61,021 nt of DNA from positions 1 to 61,021 of IMG/VR virus record IMGVR_UViG_3300007276_000003. One strand, given 5' to 3'. This document shows positions 3,407 through 49,936 of this stretch, one piece after another. The DNA comes from a virus. A program made the translations under genes and the position numbers. Below the pieces are notes generated by a model. That model saw only the letters and a program-made list of their open reading frames with translations. It was not told the origin of the DNA and did no database searches. Position 1 is the stretch's first letter. Each line of letters begins with the position of its first letter.

Positions 3407-6400
3407 TTAATCAAACCCTCCTTCAAAACCTTTACTGTCAAAGGAGTTGTTTTTAAAACCTGCATTGTTAAATCCACCTGATGAATTAAAACCTGCAGCT
3501 TTCTTTTTATCTTCCCTAGCTTTCTTTTCTTTTTCTTTCTGAATCTTTTTATAGAAATCATCCATAGTTTGTTCAGATTTTCCTGAACCTTTTTTCTTAG
3601 GACCTTCTATTTGATAGTTAGAATAATTTAGTAATCTCATAATCATTTTTCCTAAGTCTACTTCATCACCCATCTTTGAATAGTTATCAAAAAACTTTGC
3701 TATAGTTGGCATTGGTAATCCTGTTAGGGTGGCTAGTTCTAGGTAAGCATCTCTATATGCTTTTGCTTTCTTCTCCTCATCCTTAAACTTACCTGCTCTC
3801 ATAAAGTCCTTAGCAATACCATTGGCAATTTGTATAATACCAACTGTCTTTGCTTGACTACCTGCCCAAGGCTTATCTTGGAATGCATCGGCTGCAGTTT
3901 GTACAACCTCACCAATTATAAATAAAGCATTGAGGTTACCAATAATTCCTGCTCTGTACAAATCTTCATCGTCATCATCTCTCCAACCTCTTAGTATTCC
4001 CGGTAATCCCATTGCTACATATTGGAATAGTGTAGGCATAAAAACGTGGTACATTATAAATGTTCTAATATTCTCCCCAAAGGTTCCTTTATAAGCCTGA
4101 CCTGACATTGCTCGGTACAAGTTTCTTACGGCTATTATTTCTTTTCTTAAATACTGCTTAGGTGTAGTTAAGAACATATTCATTGCTCTTGTTATTGGGT
4201 CACCTGTTTGTAGGTAATCCTTATCCTGTAAGTCACCTGACTGCTGAGTTCTTTTTGTATCTCTCTCAAACTTTCTAATAGCTATATCAATAGCCTCTTG
4301 CTCAGTCTTACCCTGCTTCAATGCTTGTGCTTTGTAATAAGAGTAGTTGGGTAAACCACCTAGCATAATTGCACCTCTATCACCAAGCTTTGTAGTATAC
4401 ATTGCAAAGTTTACCAACCAATCTTTTGTAGGTCTAGGAACAAACTCTTTCATCTTAGCATCAGTATAAGTTTCGATTGCTCTCATAATGCTTTGATTGT
4501 TTCTGTCTTTCATATAAACAGAATTTTCCGTAACCTCTTTCCAAACTTTTAGTTGTTGTGTTTTATTCTTCGCTGCATATAACAACCAATTCTTGATTCC
4601 AATATCATTAGCATATGTAAATGTAGACGTTAACTGCTTGATTGTAATTACAGGACTCAATGCAAGTCTAGATAGGATGAATACGTTATTCATTCCATTA
4701 ATAATTTTTGCTCTGATACCTGACTGCTGACCCTGAGAAGCTACCTTCTGAATCATATCTTTTACAAAGGTATATATCTCAGAACCGTGTATATCTGTTA
4801 TAGCACCTTTAACATACCTGTTAGTAAAGAACTTATCCATATCCCTTATGGTTTCTCCATAAGCTGCGAAGTATTCCATATCATTGATGTATGTGTTTAA
4901 TACATCCATCATATTCATAGCCTGAATAGGAAGATTACTATTTTGTCTAACCTTTGTAGCACCTGCACCTACTGCAGTCTTATACATATTACCCTGACCA
5001 AGTAAATTTATTACTTCAATCTCACTTTCAGGAACACCATCTCTGTATATAGTTCCTGCATAATACTTGTTCCAAGGAAGGTCAGTTCTATATAATTTCT
5101 TATACGTTTTATTATACTCCTCATATAGGGCAGGATATAATACTTCAACTTGCCAATCAGCAACCTCTTTTACTTTAGGGTCTAGCTTTGCTTCAAGTTC
5201 TTTCATTACTCTTGCAGCATTAGCTTCATTAGCTTTTTGCTTACGTTTCTTTTCTGCAGCAGTATCATCTTTATTGATTACCTCAACACCCCACATTTCG
5301 GGATTAGCAAATGATGACCTGTTAGCAGGGTCCTTATACATATTATAGAGGTATGCAATTTGGTCTTGACTAATTGGTTCAAGCATAATACCATCGTGTA
5401 ACTCAATACCTAAATCTTGTTGCATTCTATTATCTCTAGAAACTTTCTTCCATTTCTTTCCATATGTTTCATATAGATACCCTGCAATGATAGATTCAAC
5501 CTCCATCATTCTCATCTTAAATCTTCTAGAGGATTCATCTACTCTTTCGGTAAACATTTCATTTAGTCTACCACCAAACATTTCACCCGGAAGTTTATCT
5601 AATCTATCCATTAGACCATCCATAGCTTCAGCACTACCAAAAGTATAATTACCAAGCTTAGTAAACATATTAGAGAAGAATCTTCTTACTACATTTTGTG
5701 TAGCCTTCTTTCTTTTTTCATCTGCCTTCCTTTGTTTCTTTCTATTGTTAAGATTTGTCTTAGCATCAGGGTCAGACATATCAACTCTATCTCCTGTGAT
5801 AGCTTCATAACCTTTCTCAAACTGTTCGTTATAATATTGATGTTGTCTTAAAAGTTCTTCTTGAAGCAATGACCTACCAAATGTAATCATCTCTTCAAGT
5901 GTTGAATAGATACCATCTAACTCTGTAACCTTATTTGGATTAGAGTTCTCCATTAACATTGCATTGTTATACTGCATAGCTAATTGAAGGTCAACCATTT
6001 CTTCTCTTTGTTCTACAGTCTGCTGAGTTTCTTGAGCCAACTCATTAAACCTTTCTAGAAGTTTCATATTCACCTCACCTATTTGCTCGGCAGTAGCCTT
6101 TGGTCCAACAAGGTTTGACTTTATTTTATCTATTCTTTTTCTAACCTCATCAACAATCTTCTTTGGTTTTAATCTATTGTTTTCAACTGCTTGATACTTA
6201 CCATTAAGAACACCATCAATTTTTTTCTGAAGTGATTTAATGTTTGTTTCAATAACGAAGTCTGTTACTTCCTGAAGAATGTTTTCAATATTCTTTTCAG
6301 TAGCTTTATTTACTTTATCAATTAACTTTATTACATCACCTTTACGATATAATTCTTTAGGTAAAGATTTACGAATGAAGTTTCTTACTTCAGTCTTTAT

Positions 6401-9400
6401 CTTCTGTAAGTCTTTTGCACCCTTTCTTCTTTGACGTAAGAATAATCTAGCTTGAGCAATCTTTGTACCTAAATTTTGTGATGGTCTAATACCAATACTG
6501 CTTTGTAAATCACTAAGCATCTGTGCTTGTTGTGTAGATATACCTTTTGTTTTAGCATCAGCTTCAGCTATGTATTCTTTCTGCTGCTCTAAGAACTCAA
6601 TGGTCTTATCAAGTATCTGTTGTTCAGATAGTTTATTTTTTCTTTTGTTGTTACTCTTCTGAAGTTTCTTTCTGTAAGCATCTACCTTTTGATACAATGC
6701 CAACCCTACTTGAGCACCACCCTTGACGTTACCAAAACTCTTTGGCATTTGGTCAAACAAGTCTACATCTAAAGCCATCAATTGGTTTACAAGTTTTGCA
6801 GGAAACTTCTTAACTCTAACTAAGAAGTCTTTAATCACATCATCTCTAAAGTTATTTCTTCTAGCCTCTAAGATGTATGACTCAATATCTTTTTGTTGTC
6901 TGCCTTTATTCTTGTAAGGATTAATTTTATAACCTCTTGAATTTGTCAAGTAGTATGAACCACCTCTACCGTATTGGTCAACTCTAGATTGCTTTACACC
7001 AATACCCGGTGGTAAATCTTTTTTTAATCTATAGAGGTCAACTTGTTTTGGTAAGAAGCCATAGATATTCATACCATAGTATTGAGCAATTTGCTCAACC
7101 GACTTTTGTTGTCTACCCCTTGGTTTAGATTGTGTGTCATCTATTTTCTCAACGATAATACCTCTGTTACCAAAAGTATTTTTCTTGTATACATTTACTT
7201 TATCGCCAAGTAAATCTTGTACATACTCCACAAGTTCATTACCATCAAAACCTTTTTGGTACACATCCACTACCTCTCCACCTTTTTTTCTTTTGATGAT
7301 ATAGCTTTTATCTTCAGGACCCTTTTCAAAGTTCTTAGCATTTGCTATATCACCTTTGAATCCTCGTGAACTAATTACTGCAACACCACCCGGCTTTAGG
7401 TTTTCATATATATCTTCTACAATAAAATCTCGTACATCTTTTGGCACAACATTGAGTACATTTAATGATACAATAGCATCGTATTGTTTATTAATGTCAC
7501 TAGCCTTTGTATAGGTAACAGGTGTTTTACCCTTCCATCTTTCAGGGTTTAGTTCATATGAATCAACCTCAGTTCCTAATACCTGTGACATTGCATCAGT
7601 ACCAAGACCAAGACCTGCACCATAATCTAATACTTCACCTTCAATCTCAAGGTCATTAACTATGTTTGCAGCCTTAACATAACTACCTGTAGTTGTAGCT
7701 ACCTGCGTAGTTCCTGAAGACTTAGATAATGCCTTGTCTATTTTTTGTTGTCTTTGTTTTCTTGATGTAACTTTTTTAACTCCTGAACCATAAGGTGCTA
7801 CCTTTTGACTAGTAGTAGTTCTAGGTCTACCCTCCATTGAATCCCTCATTTCTTTAGGCATCAATTCAAATGCATCAATCTTAGTATCAGGGATACCAAC
7901 TACATCACCTAAAATATTATTGCTATAGGTTGAATGGTTAGAACCTTCCTGTACTCCTGTTGGTTTTAAGACCAACATAATATCGTTCTGTTTAAAATCA
8001 TTCTCTTTATAGAAACCATCTCTCATAGAGTTGGGGTCTATAAATCCATCTAAACTTTTAACTAGCTTATGATATTCTGTATTTGTAGTTTTTTCTTGAG
8101 CAATATGTGCAATCAAAAAGTTTTTTCTAACTGAACCATCAGCCTCTTTTATGGATTCCCAACTGTCATATTCTGTAAGTACATCCTTAACTCCCTTTAC
8201 GGGTTTAGTTTTTAATGCTTTCTTTTTAAAGGTGGCATAGTCCCCTAGTTTATTTGTATATGCATCATATACTTTTTTATTAAATAAGTGACTCTTTGTA
8301 GGTGAACCACTAATAATAAATATATAATCAGAGTTCTTTATATTCTTTTCTAGTTTAGCCACAGGAAAGCTACTTGCCCAAGCAACACCTTCTTGTTGTA
8401 AAGCATAACTTGGTCCTGCATCAATATCCATCTCGGCATCTAAACCTAGTTGGTCTGCCACCCAAAACCAAACCTTTTGGTCGTTCTCAGCTATCTCGTC
8501 TATCAATGCATCAATGTCAATTTTATTTGCAGAAGTGATTAATGATAGTGGATATGAATCTTTAAAGTTTAACTTCTGTTGTTTCCCTTTTGGTTTAACA
8601 ATGGTAGTTGGGTTACCTACAGGGTTTGTTCCATTATCTAGTTCCTCTAATGTAGCAATGTCAGACTCTTCAATAACCTCACCCTTTCTAGTTTTTCTTG
8701 ATATAACATTTAATAAGTCAATAACATCAGCATCTTTTGCACCAAAGTCATTCCCTATCTCAATACCAAATTTTCTTGCAATACTTTTTAAGAACTCTAC
8801 AATTACATTCTTAGATGGTTTATCAAGTTGTCTGTATTCAGATGAAAGTATACCAACTAACTCAGCTAGTCTTTCTTCATTTTGGAACTCACCTTCATAC
8901 CCTTGAGCAAATGCTTCAATTCTTTTTCCAAGTGCACTATCTTTTGGTACAACTTTTTGTACAGATAATACCATCTGTTCTGCTGCCCTTGCAATGGCAG
9001 GGTCAGTCTTAACCTTTTCCATTAAGACTGCGTGGAATATTTCGTGTGGTACTGTAGTTTTTGTAGCCTTGGATAGGTTGATATGAATAGTGGTATTATC
9101 AGGGTTATACTCTGCTCTACCATCACCAAGCTTTGCATATTTTAAATATTGCTCGTTAGTTTCGTGCATAACAATTCTAACATTAGGCAATACTTTTGAT
9201 ATAGCTTTTGCTCCAAGGTCAGCTATTTTAATTACACTACTTCTAAATGGATTAGTATTTTTAGAACCATCCTCACTTCTATTCAATGCAATGTTTTGTC
9301 CTTTAACCTCAGAACTATCTTCTGTTTCATTAAAGAATGAATCAATGTCGCTTTGCTCTTCCACAGTTACATTGCCCGGCTTGTTAACAGATTGATTGTC

Positions 9401-12106
9401 AACTACCTCACCATCTTGGAACTCATTAATTTTTTGTTCAGAAGTTTTATCTTGTTGTTGTTGCGTAGCAACTTCACCAACTAAAGATGATAACCTATCA
9501 TTAACTTTGTTTAATAACTCTTGCTTTGGTTTAGACAGTACATTGTCTTGAGTTTTAATTTCTGATTCAAGAGATTCTTTTTGAAAGATTAGTTGTAAAG
9601 CTTCTTTTCTTTGGTTAGTATTATATTCACTAGGTATTCTTGGTAGTATACCTTGTAATCTTTTTACTAAAGCTAATTCTTCTTGTGCTTCCCTTTTTGT
9701 TTTAGGGTCATTTGAATCAGCTATTTTTTGTTTGAGTTTGGTAACATACATCTTAGTGTAGTTCTCGTCTTTTGACATAGACTCAAACATTTCATATATC
9801 CTGTTGTCAAGCTTTTGTGCTTGTAATCCTGATACTGCATTGGCAACTGCACCCGGTGTACCTAATATGAAACCACCTACTGCCTCTTGCATACCTGCTC
9901 TGTTTACTTGAGCAATCCAATCCTGCCAAGTTTCAGGAGTTTGGAACATCTCCTTACCTTTGACATCATTGTAAATATCTTTTATAGTTATCTCTGCTGC
10001 TTCTTGTAATGCACCTGTTTCATATTCTGCCAAACCACCTGCACCAACAGTAAGCAATCCTCTTGCCATCATTGATTCTACATCTTGTCTGATAAATTCA
10101 CCAAATGATTTTGCAGTTGTATTTTTTGTAGACTTTTTTAATGCTCTACTAACTACGCTATTTAATAAACCCTTTTGACCAATTACGTTTCTAAAACCAA
10201 TTGCTTCTAGAGTACCTACTGCTACACCAATAGGAACGGCAACCATAGACTTTTCACTTTCAGTTACGTTATCGAAAGCTGCATTCTCTTCCATCTCCTC
10301 ATAAACGTGGTCTGTAACTTGTGCATACATCTGTGCAGTACGTTGTGCCCATCCTGCAGGACTAGAGCCACCTATCATAGCAGGTAGTGATTCTGTTAAT
10401 CCAAGTAATGCACCACCCCAAAATGATTCTTTTGCAGTATCACTCCATTGCTTAGTGGTATTGTCGCTACCTAATACTTCTCTCATCCCTCTACGACCTG
10501 CATCTAACATTCCTAATGTTACATCAGTTCCTTGAGCAGTTGCAGAGAATGGGTTTCTATATCTACCTTCTACTGCTTGGTCATAAGATTCAAATTCTTT
10601 GATTCCCTTACGAGCCAAGTCCATAACCTTTGCGTTTGCTTTATCAAACTCAGTTTCTTCAACTATAGGTATATTAAAAGCACTCGAACCTATTCTAGTA
10701 GCCATTGCTCCTTGTAGAATTTTTTCTCCAAGAAACTTCATATCGTTAGAATCACCACCAAGTTCTTCTATCAATTGTTCTTTACTTAGGTCATACACAC
10801 TTGGTAAAGTTTCTAGTGGTATCATTTTAGGTGTTCCTAACTCAGGGTCTAACACCTCTATCATACCATCTTTTACCCTACCTTCAGGATAAGTTTCTCT
10901 AAACTTACCCTCTTCAAATGAACCATTTTCTAATGCAACTCTAGCTATCTCTTCTTTATAATTCTTTTCACCCATACCTCTATTAGGTGTAAAGTAAGTA
11001 GCAGCATCAGTCATAGTATTCATTGCCGTAGTTCCAAATCTAGCAGCACCATCTAACAATGCATTAACAAATGCACCACCCGGTGCACCTTGTTCAGAAG
11101 CCATCTCATAATACTCACCTGCCATTTGGTCAAGCTTCTGTCCCTTTCTCTCAAAGTCTTTGTTTTGTTTTTTTAAATCTTCTAAAACTTTATTAGAAGC
11201 TTCTTTCGCTGAAACCCATTTGTCAAAGTTGGCTTTTAAAACAGGGTCAGCATTCAACTGTGCCTTAGTTACATTAGCAAAGTTTTTTTTGTATAGAAGG
11301 TCTAGTTTGTTTTTGTATAAAGCATACTGTTTTAAATTTGACTCAAACTCTTTTGATTCTTGATTAAAAGCTTTTACTGTATTAATAATCTGCTTTTCAT
11401 TATCTATCTTCCTTTTGTTTTCAATGATAGCAGTAGATTCGTCTATGATGACTTGGTTCTCTGCTTTATTTTCTCTTAGGAATTTTTGCAAAGCTTCAGC
11501 CTCACCTTTCTCTCCCCAAAAAGGGTCAAGGTTGGTATAGTGTTCGTTGCCATTTGCAGCCTTAACTTTCATACCATCACCTATCCCTGTTTCAGCAAAG
11601 GTGAATCCGTAATCATTAAATTGGTAGTTAAGTTTTGGAACTACATACTCTTCCTCATAATCTATAAGGTCTTTGTTAACACCTGCCATTGACTCTTCAA
11701 AAAAGTCAGCAGGTTGCTCGTCTAAAAGAGTACCATCATAAGGATTTTTTTCAACTATCGGAGTACCATCTTCCGATAAAGAGTCTGATTCGGGAGAAGG
11801 AGCAAAGGATTCCGGAGTATTCGGAAGTGCGAACTCTTCGGATACCAAACTTTCGGGTTCGTCTTTTTTTTTTACTTGCTCTACTGCTTCATCAACCAAC
11901 GTATCTCCACCTACGGCTCCACCAAAACCAACGAGAGTTTTGAATTGTTCCACATCTTTTGAGTAGCCATCACTTTGAGCAAGACCATACATAGTAGTTA
12001 ATGCCTTCTCATCTTCACTTAAAAGCTTTTTAAAATCATCAAATGTTTTACTATAGCCATCACCTTGTGCAAGTACATATAGTTGTTGTAATGCTTTTTC
12101 GTTCAT
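3407..12106 (-). CDS. Giant polyvalent virion/ejection protein
   Basis: A 2,899-residue protein. Residues 1-60 contain two copies of a short repeat (LYVLAQGDGYSK, then MYGLAQSDGYSK). Residues about 560-800 hold glycine/alanine-rich amphipathic helices. HEIFH at 1021-1025 gives a zinc-metallopeptidase-like site. VLDYGAGLGLGT from 1492 is motif I of a SAM methyltransferase. Residues 1740-2899 are long helices and coiled coil with hydrophobic segments near 2700-2750, then a phenylalanine/glycine-rich tail. Four (G/Q)(K/R)QQK motifs, ending at 1178, 1455, 1668 and 1739, separate the middle segments. This matches phage polyvalent proteins that enter the cell with the DNA and counter host defences. 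Last large gene of the virion block, next to internal proteins. Enzyme roles are inferred. Confidence 0.85.
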   Translation of the reverse strand: MNEKALQQLYVLAQGDGYSKTFDDFKKLLSEDEKALTTMYGLAQSDGYSKDVEQFKTLVGFGGAVGGDTLVDEAVEQVKKKDEPESLVSEEFALPNTPESFAPSPESDSLSEDGTPIVEKNPYDGTLLDEQPADFFEESMAGVNKDLIDYEEEYVVPKLNYQFNDYGFTFAETGIGDGMKVKAANGNEHYTNLDPFWGEKGEAEALQKFLRENKAENQVIIDESTAIIENKRKIDNEKQIINTVKAFNQESKEFESNLKQYALYKNKLDLLYKKNFANVTKAQLNADPVLKANFDKWVSAKEASNKVLEDLKKQNKDFERKGQKLDQMAGEYYEMASEQGAPGGAFVNALLDGAARFGTTAMNTMTDAATYFTPNRGMGEKNYKEEIARVALENGSFEEGKFRETYPEGRVKDGMIEVLDPELGTPKMIPLETLPSVYDLSKEQLIEELGGDSNDMKFLGEKILQGAMATRIGSSAFNIPIVEETEFDKANAKVMDLARKGIKEFESYDQAVEGRYRNPFSATAQGTDVTLGMLDAGRRGMREVLGSDNTTKQWSDTAKESFWGGALLGLTESLPAMIGGSSPAGWAQRTAQMYAQVTDHVYEEMEENAAFDNVTESEKSMVAVPIGVAVGTLEAIGFRNVIGQKGLLNSVVSRALKKSTKNTTAKSFGEFIRQDVESMMARGLLTVGAGGLAEYETGALQEAAEITIKDIYNDVKGKEMFQTPETWQDWIAQVNRAGMQEAVGGFILGTPGAVANAVSGLQAQKLDNRIYEMFESMSKDENYTKMYVTKLKQKIADSNDPKTKREAQEELALVKRLQGILPRIPSEYNTNQRKEALQLIFQKESLESEIKTQDNVLSKPKQELLNKVNDRLSSLVGEVATQQQQDKTSEQKINEFQDGEVVDNQSVNKPGNVTVEEQSDIDSFFNETEDSSEVKGQNIALNRSEDGSKNTNPFRSSVIKIADLGAKAISKVLPNVRIVMHETNEQYLKYAKLGDGRAEYNPDNTTIHINLSKATKTTVPHEIFHAVLMEKVKTDPAIARAAEQMVLSVQKVVPKDSALGKRIEAFAQGYEGEFQNEERLAELVGILSSEYRQLDKPSKNVIVEFLKSIARKFGIEIGNDFGAKDADVIDLLNVISRKTRKGEVIEESDIATLEELDNGTNPVGNPTTIVKPKGKQQKLNFKDSYPLSLITSANKIDIDALIDEIAENDQKVWFWVADQLGLDAEMDIDAGPSYALQQEGVAWASSFPVAKLEKNIKNSDYIFIISGSPTKSHLFNKKVYDAYTNKLGDYATFKKKALKTKPVKGVKDVLTEYDSWESIKEADGSVRKNFLIAHIAQEKTTNTEYHKLVKSLDGFIDPNSMRDGFYKENDFKQNDIMLVLKPTGVQEGSNHSTYSNNILGDVVGIPDTKIDAFELMPKEMRDSMEGRPRTTTSQKVAPYGSGVKKVTSRKQRQQKIDKALSKSSGTTQVATTTGSYVKAANIVNDLEIEGEVLDYGAGLGLGTDAMSQVLGTEVDSYELNPERWKGKTPVTYTKASDINKQYDAIVSLNVLNVVPKDVRDFIVEDIYENLKPGGVAVISSRGFKGDIANAKNFEKGPEDKSYIIKRKKGGEVVDVYQKGFDGNELVEYVQDLLGDKVNVYKKNTFGNRGIIVEKIDDTQSKPRGRQQKSVEQIAQYYGMNIYGFLPKQVDLYRLKKDLPPGIGVKQSRVDQYGRGGSYYLTNSRGYKINPYKNKGRQQKDIESYILEARRNNFRDDVIKDFLVRVKKFPAKLVNQLMALDVDLFDQMPKSFGNVKGGAQVGLALYQKVDAYRKKLQKSNNKRKNKLSEQQILDKTIEFLEQQKEYIAEADAKTKGISTQQAQMLSDLQSSIGIRPSQNLGTKIAQARLFLRQRRKGAKDLQKIKTEVRNFIRKSLPKELYRKGDVIKLIDKVNKATEKNIENILQEVTDFVIETNIKSLQKKIDGVLNGKYQAVENNRLKPKKIVDEVRKRIDKIKSNLVGPKATAEQIGEVNMKLLERFNELAQETQQTVEQREEMVDLQLAMQYNNAMLMENSNPNKVTELDGIYSTLEEMITFGRSLLQEELLRQHQYYNEQFEKGYEAITGDRVDMSDPDAKTNLNNRKKQRKADEKRKKATQNVVRRFFSNMFTKLGNYTFGSAEAMDGLMDRLDKLPGEMFGGRLNEMFTERVDESSRRFKMRMMEVESIIAGYLYETYGKKWKKVSRDNRMQQDLGIELHDGIMLEPISQDQIAYLYNMYKDPANRSSFANPEMWGVEVINKDDTAAEKKRKQKANEANAARVMKELEAKLDPKVKEVADWQVEVLYPALYEEYNKTYKKLYRTDLPWNKYYAGTIYRDGVPESEIEVINLLGQGNMYKTAVGAGATKVRQNSNLPIQAMNMMDVLNTYINDMEYFAAYGETIRDMDKFFTNRYVKGAITDIHGSEIYTFVKDMIQKVASQGQQSGIRAKIINGMNNVFILSRLALSPVITIKQLTSTFTYANDIGIKNWLLYAAKNKTQQLKVWKEVTENSVYMKDRNNQSIMRAIETYTDAKMKEFVPRPTKDWLVNFAMYTTKLGDRGAIMLGGLPNYSYYKAQALKQGKTEQEAIDIAIRKFERDTKRTQQSGDLQDKDYLQTGDPITRAMNMFLTTPKQYLRKEIIAVRNLYRAMSGQAYKGTFGENIRTFIMYHVFMPTLFQYVAMGLPGILRGWRDDDDEDLYRAGIIGNLNALFIIGEVVQTAADAFQDKPWAGSQAKTVGIIQIANGIAKDFMRAGKFKDEEKKAKAYRDAYLELATLTGLPMPTIAKFFDNYSKMGDEVDLGKMIMRLLNYSNYQIEGPKKKGSGKSEQTMDDFYKKIQKEKEKKAREDKKKAAGFNSSGGFNNAGFKNNSFDSKGFEGGFD

Positions 12107-15289: not shown

Positions 15290-16111
15290 TTAAGGGAATG
15301 ATTTCATTACTTCACTTTCAACTGCAAACAGTTCTACTTTACTAGTATTGTTATTGATTAAGCTAAATACTGCATAATGTCCCAATATTCCGTGAGATTC
15401 TGCAACCGAACTTTTTATGTATAAAATATATTCTGTTTGTGTTGGTGGAACTTGAGCACCACCTATAAGAGTATTTACTATAATTTCATTAACACCATTA
15501 GGCAAATCAATATTTACAGATACAATTTGACCCATTAATTGTGGTGTAGTTCCAAAGTAAAGCATATCACCTATACTTATAATACTACCAATAGATACAC
15601 TAGTAGAAAATCTAACTAAATTTTGTCCTGCTTGTGGTGTATCAATAAGAATGTTTGAACTTGTAGCAATGCCATTTAATGAACGTAATGCATATTGATT
15701 TGCATTTGCAGGACTAGCAAGTGTTTGACCGGAGTTTCTTATAAAAGCAAAATAAGCTTGTTCTTTTTTCTCATAATAATCTGCATCTATAAACCCTGTG
15801 TCTTGTAAATCACTTTTAACTGTAGTTGTCCAAGAATCATCTCCTTCAAGATTCATAGTTTTAAATAATTTATTTTCTAAAGGTTGCTCATTAAAAACAG
15901 ACTCAACCTTAGAAGGATAATTAACACCATAGTATTGGTTTCTAGTTTCGTTAGTATTGTGACGAAAAACATTACCCCCTTTGAACGTATAAAAATAATT
16001 GTTCATACCTATCATCCAATCAGGATTATAGGAATAAAAAGATGGAAATCCTTTTACACCACTATCATAACTTAGTGTATAATTTACATTTTTATCTACT
16101 TGATTACTCAT
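15290..16111 (-). CDS. Structural protein, probable tail component
   Basis: A 273-residue protein rich in beta-strand, asparagine and aromatic residues. No family is recognised. It lies between the tail nozzle/appendage genes and the internal virion proteins, and is followed by the GNAT-like gene. It is probably a tail or appendage subunit. Confidence 0.55.
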   Translation of the reverse strand: MSNQVDKNVNYTLSYDSGVKGFPSFYSYNPDWMIGMNNYFYTFKGGNVFRHNTNETRNQYYGVNYPSKVESVFNEQPLENKLFKTMNLEGDDSWTTTVKSDLQDTGFIDADYYEKKEQAYFAFIRNSGQTLASPANANQYALRSLNGIATSSNILIDTPQAGQNLVRFSTSVSIGSIISIGDMLYFGTTPQLMGQIVSVNIDLPNGVNEIIVNTLIGGAQVPPTQTEYILYIKSSVAESHGILGHYAVFSLINNNTSKVELFAVESEVMKSFP

Positions 16112-32453: not shown

Positions 32454-33018
32454 TTTTATAAAACATTACATAGACTATTCTGCCTTCTTGCCAACTTTCA
32501 TTTGGATATTTACTATGAAAATAATTACAAGGATAAGATATAAGTCTATTAGGTTTGTATCCCACAACACTTTTTAAATTCCATTTACTTAAATCATTTG
32601 AATCTTCTTTTAATATACTATCAAACTCTTCATCCGAAATATTGCTTGGCATAGTTTCACCCATAGTTGAATGCTCCCAAAAAGCAGTTCCGTGTAATTC
32701 TTTCATAGTTGACTTTGATAAATAAAGTACTAATGCTCTATCAGGTTTTTCATTATTAATAATTGTATCTGCGTGAATCCTCCAATCTTTATCTACTTCA
32801 TTGTTAGATATTCTAAAAAAACTTAATATCTTTCTTATTGGTTTATTTTCTGCAACAGACAATTCAAAAGATACAATATCATCAAAAGATTCAGAACTAT
32901 CCCAAACCCAAAAACTTTTATCACCTGTGTCAACTTCTCTATAATCTGTTGAATTTAAATAATCCATTAACTGATTATATACATTGTCACTTAAAAAATT
33001 ATCTTTTATATAAATCAT
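32446..33018 (-). CDS. 2-oxoglutarate/Fe(II)-dependent oxygenase
   Basis: A 190-residue enzyme with the prolyl-4-hydroxylase-type layout. HAD at 82-84 is the HxD iron motif, His168 (NYFHSKYP) is the distal iron ligand, and Arg180 (GRIVYV) is positioned to bind 2-oxoglutarate. The ALVLYLS strand and the HGTAFWEH segment fit the double-stranded beta-helix core. It would hydroxylate a protein, nucleic acid or small molecule; the substrate is unknown. It overlaps the tandem GroES-like gene by four bases and lies 3.5 kb from the collagen-like fibre gene. Confidence 0.8.
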   Translation of the reverse strand: MIYIKDNFLSDNVYNQLMDYLNSTDYREVDTGDKSFWVWDSSESFDDIVSFELSVAENKPIRKILSFFRISNNEVDKDWRIHADTIINNEKPDRALVLYLSKSTMKELHGTAFWEHSTMGETMPSNISDEEFDSILKEDSNDLSKWNLKSVVGYKPNRLISYPCNYFHSKYPNESWQEGRIVYVMFYKNE

Positions 33019-33578
33019 AGAACCATTGTTATTTGGTGGTCATACATTCTATATAATTTTTCTCCATCAACATTAAACTCATATTCAGAGTCAGGTTTAA
33101 ATGAAACTCTATCTCCTTGACTAATGCCTTTACTCATTAAATAATTATTAGGATATTTCATTTCACCCACTAATGGCTCTTCTTTTGTATTTTTATAAAT
33201 ATACGAATCTTCTTTTGATACGGGTTTTACAAAACAATACCTATCAACTGCATTCCATTGTATACCATTATGATACATATAAAACTGTTCAGGTTCTACA
33301 AAAAATAAATCATCTTTAAAAAAGCTTCTACCACTTCTTTGTCTACCCTTCATATCATTGTAGTACTTAAAAACATTATGATGTACTAACAAAAAATCTC
33401 CCACCTTTATTGGACCTTTATATCCAAGGGGGAGTTCTATAACTTCAGCTTTACGATTTGAAAATCTAGCATCTTCCAAAGAAGTGCTTACGATAAAATC
33501 TATTCCACCAATACTTTTAGTATTATTATACCTTTTACCCTTTACAGGTTTGGTAATAAATGCAAACGGTGATTTCAT
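33015..33578 (-). CDS. Protein with two GroES-like folds in tandem
   Basis: A 187-residue protein. The second half (about 105-187) follows the Cpn10 pattern: a FVKPV strand, a GEMKYPNN turn, GDRVSF, then VDGEKLYRMYDHQITMV, which parallels the GroES ending of DGEE...DILAIV. The first half repeats the outline (AEVIELP, VGDFLLVHH, then a final strand in FFVEPEQFYMY). It may be a chaperonin partner or a structural beta-barrel protein. Recognition is by pattern, not by search. Confidence 0.5.
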   Translation of the reverse strand: MKSPFAFITKPVKGKRYNNTKSIGGIDFIVSTSLEDARFSNRKAEVIELPLGYKGPIKVGDFLLVHHNVFKYYNDMKGRQRSGRSFFKDDLFFVEPEQFYMYHNGIQWNAVDRYCFVKPVSKEDSYIYKNTKEEPLVGEMKYPNNYLMSKGISQGDRVSFKPDSEYEFNVDGEKLYRMYDHQITMVL

Positions 33579-36482: not shown

Positions 36483-38267
36483 TTACCCCTCGCATAGCAT
36501 AACCGAGAATTGACGACCATCGGCAAGAGTAAAAGTTGCACATCTTGTTTTGCCGGTATCTACGTCTACCCTTTGTATAGTTGTGTCTTTGCCACCATCA
36601 ATACTTACAGGAAATTGTGGTCCTGTTGGTCCCGTTGGTCCTTCCGGTCCTGTTGGTCCTTGTGGACCTGTAGCACCTGTGTTACCTTTAGCACCTGCAG
36701 GTCCTTGTGGACCTGTAGCACCCGTAGAACCCGTTGCTCCTTTTGGACCTTCAGGTCCTTGTGGTCCAACACCTCCTGTACTACCTGTATCTCCTTTAGG
36801 TCCTTGCGACCCTGTATCTCCTTTAGGTCCCTCATCTCCTTGGTCACCTTTCGGACCTTGGGGTCCAACACCTCCTGTTGACCCTGTATCACCTTTAGGT
36901 CCCTGTGGACCTACTCCTCCGGTTGCACCGGTATCTCCCTTAGGTCCTTGTGGTCCAACACCACCGGTATCTCCGGTTTTCCCTTGTGGTCCTTCCGGTC
37001 CTTCAGGTCCTTGTGGACCCGTACTTCCGGTATCTCCCTTAGGACCTTCCGGTCCTGTTGCTCCAATATCTCCTTTTGCTCCCTGTGGTCCGGTGGCTCC
37101 TGTGTCCCCTGTTTTACCCTGTGGTCCCTCAGGTCCCTCCGGTCCTTGAGGTCCGGTACTTCCGGTATCCCCTTTTGCTCCTTGAGGTCCGGTACTTCCG
37201 GTATCTCCTTTTGCTCCTTGAGGACCTTGTGGTCCTGTCAAACCTATATCACCTTGAGGTCCTTTTGGTCCCTCCGGTCCGGTACTACCTGTATCTCCTT
37301 TTGGACCTTGAGGTCCCGTAGCACCTGTATCACCTGTATCTCCTTTCGGACCTTGTGGACCCTCCGGTCCTTCAGGTCCCGTAGCACCTGTATTTCCTTT
37401 TGAACCTGTATCTCCTTTTGGACCTTGAGGTCCTGTAGAACCCGTGTCACCTTTTGCACCTGCCGGACCTTGTGGTCCAATAGGTCCCGTAGCACCTGTG
37501 TCACCGGTCTTACCCTGAGGACCTTCCGGTCCCTCAGGACCTGTTGCTCCTGTGTCGCCCTTAACTCCTTGAGGACCTTGAGAACCTGTATCCCCCTTTG
37601 GACCTTGAGAACCTGTATCCCCCTTTGGTCCTTCAGGACCTTCCGGTCCTTGTGGTCCTTCAGGACCCGTTGGTCCTGTAGCACCTGTATTTCCTGTTTT
37701 TCCTTGAGGACCTTCATCACCTTGGTCGCCCTTTGGACCTTGAGGACCTGTTGCTCCCGTTAATCCAATGGGTCCTTGAGCACCGGTATCTCCCTTTACT
37801 CCTTGGTCACCTTGCTTACCTTGAGGACCTTCAGGACCTGTTGGTCCTGTAGCACCGGTATCTCCCTTATCACCCTTACCTCCCTGAGGTCCTTGAGGAC
37901 CTTCGGGACCTTCGGGACCTTCGGGACCGGTCAATCCTATTGGTCCTTGTGGACCCGTTGAACCGGTGTCACCTTTGTCACCTTTATCTCCTGTTTTTCC
38001 TTGTGGACCTTGTGGACCGGTTGCTCCCGTTAAACCAATAGGACCCTGAGGTCCTGTTGCTCCGGTATCACCCGTATCACCTTTCGGACCCTGAGGTCCG
38101 GTATTAGTTGGCATAGTAACTGAGTTACCATCACTAATACTAAGTGTTTGTCCGTTAACTGTTAATGATTGTTTTGGGATAAAAGCACCGGTATCCAAAC
38201 TCACCCCATCAACTTTTATGTCGGTAGAAACTGAGATAGGTTCCTTAAACTCAATGTATGATGCCAT
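36483..38267 (-). CDS. Collagen-like tail fibre protein
   Basis: A 594-residue protein. Residues 1-56 are a non-collagen head, residues 57-551 are 165 consecutive Gly-X-Y triplets with no break seen, and a 43-residue beta-rich tip with two cysteines closes the chain. Proline sits in X (GPQ, GPK, GPE) and I see none in Y; Y holds threonine, lysine, glutamine and glutamate. This should form a triple-helical rod about 140 nm long if fully folded (0.29 nm per residue). It lies in a fibre gene cluster. The DNA is highly repetitive, so length variation between isolates is likely. Confidence 0.9.
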
Positions 38268-46323: not shown

Positions 46324-47904
46324 TTAATTATTATCTTCATAAGTTCGTGCCATTGTTATAATAGCATTAGTTGATAGCAATGTTATTGCAACCGATACTG
46401 CATTCTGAAGTGCTGACCTTGTAACTTTCAATGGGTCTATAATACCCATCTCATACATATCACCATACTCATCATTCTTTACGTCATACCCTGCGTTAGC
46501 AGGGTCGGTTATTTTAAATTCGTATCCTTCATAATCTTTACCTGCATTTTTCCAAATTTGTTTTAATGGAGATTGTAAAGCTTGTTTTAGAATTTGTTTA
46601 GATACCGTAGAATCATCCAACTCCATTGATTCTCTTAATAAAGCAAGACCACCTCCGGGAATAATACCTTCTTCTAAGGCTGAACGTACTGCACAGACTG
46701 CATCATCAACACGGTCATACAGTTCCTTCTGTTCCAAATCTGTGTTACCCCCGACAAAGATGACCCCTACACCACCTTTGAGAGAGGCAATCCTGCTAAG
46801 TATAAATTCCTTGTCTTCTTTTTTAGTTGCATTTTTATGAGCATCTTGAAGTTCCTTAATTCTATTTTTAATTTCTTCTGAATCTTTGGTATTTTTTATG
46901 ATGACAGATGAGTCACGACCAACTATCACCTTGGAGCAATGACCCAAATCGTTTACTGTCATCAATGACAAATCATCTCCTGTCTTCTCACTAAAGTAAG
47001 TAGCACCCACACTAACTGCAATATCTTGCATTAGTTCGTGTTGCTTGTATCCAAAGTTTGGTGGAGGAACCACACAAATCTTTAGACTGTTCTTCATTAC
47101 ATTAGCTGCAAGAGTATTGACTACGTTAGTAGACGTTGGTGCAATAATTAAAAGCTTTTTGTTTTCCTGTATAACAGGTTTTAAAACTGCTTCTATATTT
47201 AAAATGTTTTCTATTGGAGCATCACTAACTAATATGTGACAGTCTTCCAATATACATTCATCTTTCTTTTGGTTGTTTACAAACAATGGACTTAGGTATC
47301 CTCTGTCTACTTTTAATCCATTTGTATAATCATAATATGTTTCTGAAGTTTCAGATTTGTCAACTGCTACGATACCGTGCTTTCCTACCTTCTTATAAAC
47401 CTCAGCAATAATAGAACCGAGCACCTCATCATTATTTGCTGATATTGTGGCTACGTCTTTCAACACCTTAGTAGAAACTTTCTTGGCTTTAGCCTTCAGG
47501 TTAGAAACAATCAGATTGGTATCCTCTACCAAATCTCTCAAGACTTGAGTTTTGTTTTCTTTAATATACTCTGTTCCTGCTTCAACTAATGCTTCAGTTA
47601 AAACAATTGCAGTTGTAGTTCCATCACCGGCATTAGATGCAGTACGTTCTGCAGCCTCTTTCATAATACGAACTGCTAAGTGTTCTGTTGGGTCTAGCAA
47701 CGAAACAGACTTAGCAACTGTCACTCCATCTTTGGTGACTGTTATTCCGTGTGTGTGTTGTGGTGATTCTATTAATACAGTTTGACCTGATGGTCCAAGT
47801 GTGGACTTAACTGCTTTGGCTATTTTTTCGATTCCTTTGAAAAGCTTATCTCTGCCCTCTTGGTCGAACAATAGATTCTTAGGGGTGTATCCTAGTTCTG
47901 ACAT
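46324..47904 (-). CDS. groL: Chaperonin GroEL (Cpn60)
   Basis: A 526-residue group I chaperonin. TLGPSGQTV (about 35-43) and NAGDGTTTAIVL with GDGTT at 93-97 are the ATP-binding signatures. RVDDAVCAVRSALEEGIIPGGG is the conserved second equatorial signature, with the catalytic aspartate. It is close to the usual 540 length but lacks the GGM tail, ending in an acidic EDNN. First gene of the leftward late block. It would fold phage structural proteins with the phage GroES. Confidence 0.95.
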   Translation of the reverse strand: MSELGYTPKNLLFDQEGRDKLFKGIEKIAKAVKSTLGPSGQTVLIESPQHTHGITVTKDGVTVAKSVSLLDPTEHLAVRIMKEAAERTASNAGDGTTTAIVLTEALVEAGTEYIKENKTQVLRDLVEDTNLIVSNLKAKAKKVSTKVLKDVATISANNDEVLGSIIAEVYKKVGKHGIVAVDKSETSETYYDYTNGLKVDRGYLSPLFVNNQKKDECILEDCHILVSDAPIENILNIEAVLKPVIQENKKLLIIAPTSTNVVNTLAANVMKNSLKICVVPPPNFGYKQHELMQDIAVSVGATYFSEKTGDDLSLMTVNDLGHCSKVIVGRDSSVIIKNTKDSEEIKNRIKELQDAHKNATKKEDKEFILSRIASLKGGVGVIFVGGNTDLEQKELYDRVDDAVCAVRSALEEGIIPGGGLALLRESMELDDSTVSKQILKQALQSPLKQIWKNAGKDYEGYEFKITDPANAGYDVKNDEYGDMYEMGIIDPLKVTRSALQNAVSVAITLLSTNAIITMARTYEDNN

Positions 47905-49003: not shown

Positions 49004-49936
49004 ATGAAAAATCAAAATGACATTTACTCTAGGATTAATGACCTAGTAATCGAGGGACTAACCAAGGAAGGTATGCAATGGTTCAAGCCTTGGAAAGGTG
49101 GACAAGAGAACGCACCTTTTAACCTGCACACTAAGAGATATTACAACGGGTTTAACATCTTTATGTTGAACTTTGTAATGAGAAGCGAAGGTTACGAGCA
49201 TAACCAATGGATGACCTTTAAGCAAATCTCTGAGAAGGGTGGCAAGGTTATCAAAGGTAGCAAGTCAACAGAAGTTTACTTTTGGCAGATAGGTTACTTC
49301 GACAACAAGACAGGTAAATTTGTTCCTGCTAAACTTATCAAGACTATTAATGTTTCAGAGCAATTTGAAGGTAAGGATAGATACAGAAAAACATTTTCTG
49401 TAAGGTTTTACAAAGTGTTCAACGTAGCACAGACTGAAGGCATTGAGCCAATGGTTAAAGAAGAGGTTGTAACTGATGTAGTTAATGAGCCTAATGAAGT
49501 TGCTGAGGCTCTAGTAAAAAGCTATGTAGAAAAGCAAAACGGATTTAAGATTATGCACAGAGAGAACTCTGCATACTACTCACCTACTAGAGATATAGTT
49601 AATATGCCAATGCTAGAAACATTTGTTGATGCTGATAGCTACTACAAGACTTTGTTTCACGAGTTAGCACATAGTACAGGTCACAAGTCAAGATTGAATC
49701 GTAAGTCAATGACTGAGATTTCACATTGGGGTGACAATACCTATGCTAAGGAAGAGTTAGTTGCTGAGATTAGTTCTTGGTACTTAGTCGGTCTGTTAGG
49801 ACTTAATCCACAGGACAATGAAGTTAACTCTCAAGCCTATATCAAAGGGTGGTGCAAGAGTCTTAAAGATAAGCCTAGCGAATGTGTGTTTGCTATGCAA
49901 CAAGCAACCAAGGTTGTAGACTACCTTCAGCAGTAG
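49004..49936 (+). CDS. ArdC-like antirestriction protein with zincin domain
   Basis: A 310-residue protein. Residues about 1-130 match the ArdC N-terminal ssDNA-binding domain (MQWFKPWKGG, HTKRYYNGFNIFML, QWMTFKQISEKGGKV, KSTEVYFW). Residues about 190-310 are the zincin-like part with HELAHSTGHKSR, HELAH at 219-223. ArdC proteins protect incoming DNA from restriction. As the first gene after the strongest early promoter it is probably expressed at once on entry. The DNA-protection role is known for the family and inferred here. Confidence 0.9.
   Translation: MKNQNDIYSRINDLVIEGLTKEGMQWFKPWKGGQENAPFNLHTKRYYNGFNIFMLNFVMRSEGYEHNQWMTFKQISEKGGKVIKGSKSTEVYFWQIGYFDNKTGKFVPAKLIKTINVSEQFEGKDRYRKTFSVRFYKVFNVAQTEGIEPMVKEEVVTDVVNEPNEVAEALVKSYVEKQNGFKIMHRENSAYYSPTRDIVNMPMLETFVDADSYYKTLFHELAHSTGHKSRLNRKSMTEISHWGDNTYAKEELVAEISSWYLVGLLGLNPQDNEVNSQAYIKGWCKSLKDKPSECVFAMQQATKVVDYLQQ

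Follow-up and report, generated by a model that had tools for sequence, protein, structure and literature searches.

The window, meaning the whole 61,021-nucleotide stretch of DNA that was analyzed, is an IMG/VR virus record from a crAss-related podovirus. Its portal and terminase belong to phrog_6547 and phrog_6681, respectively, and a muzzle protein C-terminal domain was detected at 15290-16111 (Pfam PF25729, E 1.9e-17). Judged by the muzzle domain and by the portal and terminase families, the virus classifies as a Crassvirales-like podovirus. Near the muzzle gene, inside the virion module, lies a giant ORF (3407-12106, minus strand) that starts with ATG and encodes 2,899 aa. A first-pass annotation had described four (G/Q)(K/R)QQK motifs in this protein, and both their residue positions and the lengths of the segments between them (271, 207, and 65 aa) were correct. 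Its description of the 207-aa segment as methyltransferase-like is borne out by a Pfam match (PF13489, E 1.2e-6). The features of the giant protein and the positions of the phage GroES and GroEL homologues are as follows (window coordinates; each site is a motif match).

8639-9214, minus strand: PEP, predicted zincin-like metallopeptidase domain (aa 965-1156), directly upstream of site 1
9032-9046, minus strand: HEIFH active-site motif (aa 1021-1025)
8861-8878, minus strand: EE...E, likely third zinc ligand region (aa 1077-1082)
8573-8590, minus strand: site 1, KGKQQK (aa 1173-1178)
7760-8572, minus strand: cassette 1 (SEG1), conserved domain without Pfam match (aa 1179-1449)
7742-7759, minus strand: site 2, KQRQQK (aa 1450-1455)
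7121-7741, minus strand: cassette 2, methyltransferase-like, Pfam PF13489 (aa 1456-1662)
7103-7120, minus strand: site 3, RGRQQK (aa 1663-1668)
6908-7102, minus strand: cassette 3, 65-aa YGRGG...NP domain (aa 1669-1733)
6890-6907, minus strand: site 4, KGRQQK (aa 1734-1739)
5660-6889, minus strand: CT1, conserved helical region (aa 1740-2149)
3857-5659, minus strand: CT2, conserved C-terminal region (aa 2150-2750)
33015-33578, minus strand: phage GroES homologue
46324-47904, minus strand: phage GroEL homologue

Perhaps the GroEL and GroES homologues are needed for the folding of large virion proteins. The first 60 residues of the giant protein (aa 1-60; 11927-12106, minus strand) contain the motif DGYSK...FK.L(L/V) twice, possibly a packaging or ejection signal. 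Elsewhere, a 594-aa protein with a strong match to the collagen triple-helix repeat (PF01391, E 2e-72) is encoded at 36483-38267 (minus strand), and an ArdC-type anti-restriction protein with an MPTase-PolyVal domain, the second zincin of this genome, at 49004-49936 (plus strand).

In 2,000 shuffled copies of the giant protein, the (G/Q)(K/R)QQK motif occurred 0.014 times per protein, with a maximum of 1. The sole further QQK in the giant protein, FLEQQK at 1838, falls outside the motif definition, and the motif is absent from all other window ORFs of at least 60 aa.

The HExxH metallopeptidase just before site 1 had been overlooked in the first-pass annotation. H1021, E1022, H1025, E1077, and E1078 were invariant in the 92 aligned family members that carry PEP, and E1082 was kept in 90 of them. 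PEP itself matches no Pfam family. An AlphaFold2 model based on 75 sequences (pLDDT 78, pTM 0.81), which superseded a poor first model from 20 sequences (pLDDT 68), shows a helix at the N terminus, then three strands, the HExxH helix and, further on, a helix that bears the glutamates; passages of PMC5512222 describe this arrangement for the zincin-like metallopeptidases found in polyvalent proteins. When the model was compared to solved structures, none matched below E 0.001. The best matches, to IrrE/PprI, were weak (best E 0.034), and selecase, MATCAP, and other zincins were among the first 25 matches, none of them strong. Among the best viral matches to PEP is a Flavobacterium phage elemo structural protein (E 2e-12). 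From the conserved residues and the model, PEP is predicted to be a zincin-like HExxH metallopeptidase domain with a C-terminal Glu ligand.

About 115 distinct relatives of the giant protein were collected in three scans of viral contigs. The relatives keep the peptidase and the C-terminal region, while the set of intervening cassettes varies, and cassettes are clearly shuffled among homologues. According to Pfam, the cassettes of homologues include ART-PolyVal, LPD23, SAM lyase, GNAT, several (DNA) methyltransferases, and a second metallopeptidase family; other cassettes are of unknown type. The YGRGG...NP domain recurs immediately before the last site in many homologues, and no relatives of SEG1 were detected in a scan of bacterial genome contigs. 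By this domain content, the family is assigned to the phage-type polyvalent proteins, in which functionally distinct, effector-type enzyme domains are combined. Homologues of the methyltransferase cassette were also found free-standing in Microcystis phage MJing1, with a front edge that has no site, and in proteins of Myrna, Bigswole, and CRP-738, which have no HExxH and lack the front-edge site. The cultured Flavobacterium phage elemo encodes a homologue of 3,694 aa (L155, 4546-15630) with HEIFH and with SRFQ, TRQQ, and VRMQ edges, which is annotated as a structural protein. This phage is a good laboratory model; the paper on Baltic Flavobacterium phages contains no virion proteomics. In L005/L015, the giant ORF is broken by a frameshift near aa 2155, a break that is either genuine or due to misassembly.

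All four motifs are retained in close relatives (76-93% identical). The first-pass annotation had proposed an alignment of homologues to see whether QQK is kept at domain edges. Many homologues lack it there and show REQK, EKAQ, KNQK, RKQ, or RFQ. Taken literally, this is an outcome that the annotation had named as refuting its idea, and a single exact QQK motif for the whole family was ruled out, but within a protein all edges change together. Across the family, the form shared by the borders of the exchangeable cassettes is [K/R]-x-Q, with a spelling that is uniform within a protein and differs between lineages (RQQ, REQ, KAQ, KNQ, RKQ, RFQ). For example, REQK stands at four edges in L007/L023, EKAQ occurs five or six times in L124, L125, and L026, EKNQ three times in L119 and L123, RKQ twice in L072, L034, L074, and L062, and RFQ twice in L055 and L067. 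Some members deviate from this form: the repeated edge motif is PEPRRE (PRRE) in L149 and PRQRK in L029/L071, and 9 of the 63 peptidase-carrying members have no [K/R]xQ immediately ahead of the C-terminal region. Paired sites eight residues apart were seen just before the C-terminal region in L124 (aa 2029-2040, KEKAQRSVDEKAQK) and L119 (aa 1750-1761, KEKNQKVITEKNQK).

In the cassette region, a loose de novo motif finder gave noisy output and frequently caught other repeats; therefore, anchored-window and P2/P4 tests were used instead. The linkers before and after SEG1 are mutually non-homologous and nevertheless covary, with a mean 5-mer BLOSUM score of 19.10 versus 14.51±0.47 in permutations (z = 9.8, n = 40; because the proteins are related, permutation p-values are not strict). 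Control windows inside SEG1 showed no covariation (z = -2.1 and -1.2). Next to this, within-protein identity was compared to permutation for 143 [K/R]xQ sites in 50 proteins. With absolute values that are approximate due to the composition filter and fixed frame of site extraction, identity was 0.35 versus 0.11±0.02 at P2 and 0.31 versus 0.10±0.02 at P4; P5 was flat (0.15 versus 0.13), and P1' (0.25 versus 0.18) lay inside the permuted range. Outside the cassette region of the same proteins, [K/R]xQ showed no within-protein excess (0.065 versus 0.069). Furthermore, with lineage labels assigned by hand for the density and tree tests, which makes these values approximate too, a protein's own tripeptide was 14 times denser in the cassette region than elsewhere (128 versus 43 hits, Wilcoxon p 1.4e-14), and the tripeptides of other lineages were not enriched there (ratio 0.8).

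The RGGIDM cassette allows the same domain to be followed through differently spelled proteins. It is entered via REQK in an REQK protein, via RQQK in an RQQK protein, and via TEKNQK or TEKAQ in two proteins that otherwise use EKAQ sites; in other members its front reads RESQ (L130) or KSKYQ (L120). As far as these sequences tell, shared cassettes mostly carry the spelling of the host protein. Together, the data strongly support the view that the motifs mark domain edges and behave as recognition sites of some sequence-specific reader would. The earlier proposal of processing sites or a recurrent linker is upheld in part, insofar as it concerns these two points, but not with regard to the exact QQK, which is not conserved.

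The link between peptidase and sites was analyzed on domain trees. Counted with the hand-assigned labels, the site label changed 10 times on the PEP tree, 11 on the CT1 tree, and 12 on the CT2 tree (shuffled labels, ~24), 8 times on the PEP tree versus 9 on the SEG1 tree (shuffled labels, ~17), and 10 times on the PEP tree versus 12 on the tree of the N-terminal region, an advantage for PEP of only 1-2 steps over the other domains. When site similarity was regressed on domain identities in a noisier, Mantel-type test, PEP did not stand out from the other domains (beta 0.045, p 0.24). Two pairs of proteins are instructive: L100 and L014, with peptidases 86% identical and CT2 only 60%, both have REQK, while L100 and L013, with CT2 88% identical and peptidases 50%, have GREQK and GRQQK. 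The tree counts lean, short of proof, toward the embedded peptidase as the site reader. Of the 63 members with the peptidase, 54 have a site before the C-terminal region, as do 2 of the 6 without it (Fisher p 0.01), and in at least one of these two (L082) the match lies inside the helical region. The automatic count of 2/6 spoke against the idea that members without the peptidase are entirely motif-free. No comparable run of cassettes and sites was found before the C-terminal region in L082, L085, L108, and L094, which have a different HExxH peptidase, or in L105 and L109, which have no peptidase.

With an embedded predicted protease and repeated, same-spelled sites at its domain borders, the giant protein has the layout of a self-processing polyprotein. 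We consider it reasonably likely that the motifs serve this polyvalent polyprotein as cleavage sites with a lineage-specific spelling and that the embedded metallopeptidase probably cuts them behind the Q; that they are cut, at which bond, when, and by which enzyme is what we infer from the sequences. The giant chain would probably be packed in the virion and then ejected. A sequence-specific protease would cut the x-[K/R]-x-Q edges, most simply after Q, and free the cassettes, the likeliest enzyme being the zincin-like HExxH domain before site 1, acting in cis or on neighboring copies. Cutting could take place in the capsid or after injection, and the effectors would be freed as separate parts in a fixed ratio. 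The spelling (RQQ in this protein) would be held uniform at every edge through selection for recognition, and such selection would cause an acquired cassette to adapt its edges to the code of its host protein. The crAss001 tail needs partial unfolding of cargo (PMC10172136), which a chain of small domains would suit.

Other explanations were weighed against this self-processing polyprotein. True cleavage sites may be served by another phage protease, e.g., a prohead protease, or by a host protease, which we regard as unlikely though worth keeping in mind. In other phages, prohead proteases do cut internal head proteins at short motifs (SPN3US gp245, after AXE; PMC10052503), and the tree evidence for the embedded peptidase is weak. 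However, the giant ORF is the one ORF of 60 aa or longer in the window that bears such a site, which would leave a general head protease a single site-bearing substrate. Moreover, sites and cassettes accompany the peptidase (54/63 versus 2/6, as above), and one would hardly expect the specificity of a host protease to vary from phage to phage when the hosts are related. We find it rather improbable that nothing is cut and that the motif places each cassette as a shared binding tag (adaptor, scaffold, or ejection signal). Lineage-specific uniformity needs only a recognizing partner and not a protease, and the motif is basic and sits in linkers. Yet an invariant peptidase active site adjoins it, and the constraint on P4-P2 and the fixed Q, but not on P5 or P1', is as for a protease that reads the non-prime side.

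The motifs could also be recombination joints or copied linkers, with cassette swaps via short DNA identities spreading one linker. The clear shuffling of cassettes speaks for this, as does a codon identity between sites of 0.607 versus 0.542 expected (nominal p 0.015 from comparisons that are not independent). This excess is small, however, the site copies within a gene differ in synonymous codons, and the similarity ends at P5 and P1', leaving a tract of ~12 bases, and we consider such an origin very improbable. Hardly any credence is given to chance or composition, i.e., to a mere resemblance among disordered linkers rich in K, R, and Q. The linkers are rich in these residues, but shuffling yields only the 0.014 motifs per protein mentioned above, the within-protein excess does not extend outside the cassettes, and foreign tripeptides are not enriched.

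Extending the self-processing reading to the family, we see an about even chance that these crAss-related phages deliver interchangeable effectors by self-processing polyproteins, with one zinc-peptidase, a drifting Q-terminated code, and cassettes that adopt this code. If true, the code would be readable from sequence and would name the exact bonds, and the borders of mature effectors would be predictable in many giant phage proteins that lack annotation. DNA phages would then have a polyprotein strategy that evolved separately from that of RNA viruses, and lineage-specific proteases with short P1-Q recognition sequences would become available.

Autoproteolytic release by the MPTase domains of polyvalent proteins was predicted in 2017, with in-capsid processing suggested for some cases, in passages of Iyer et al. 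(PMC5512222). Like the polyvalent proteins described in those passages, the family analyzed here unites effector-type domains (ART-PolyVal, methyltransferases, GNAT, LPD23) and a predicted HExxH metallopeptidase in a large phage protein. The passages give no cleavage sites; in the present family, a repeated, lineage-specific site code is seen. Speaking against cutting, the virion RNA polymerase of N4, also with a metallopeptidase domain, is packaged uncut according to literature cited in the same passages (PMC5512222). The crassvirus cargo proteins gp45-gp50 of crAss001 offer a comparison system, in the description of which cleavage is nowhere mentioned (PMC10172136). The SPN3US prohead protease gp245 (PMC10052503) is likewise phage encoded and processes internal head proteins sequence-specifically, but it is an independent enzyme with many head-protein substrates, from which it mostly removes propeptides, whereas here the sites are in one protein and between domains.

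In an open-access collection of papers, we found no published cleavage sites or site code for polyvalent proteins. What is new here is the site code; the autoprocessing prediction was already published. In the polyproteins of eukaryotic RNA viruses, an embedded chymotrypsin-like protease of the 3C type cuts after Q. The sites are many, with Q at P1, uniform per virus and varying by lineage, and domains are freely exchanged. The giant protein family resembles these systems in its Q-ending sites, uniform within a protein and varying by lineage, in its embedded predicted protease, and in its domain exchange. It differs from them in that a zinc metallopeptidase would do the cutting, in a DNA phage, and within a single structural-type gene instead of a whole proteome.
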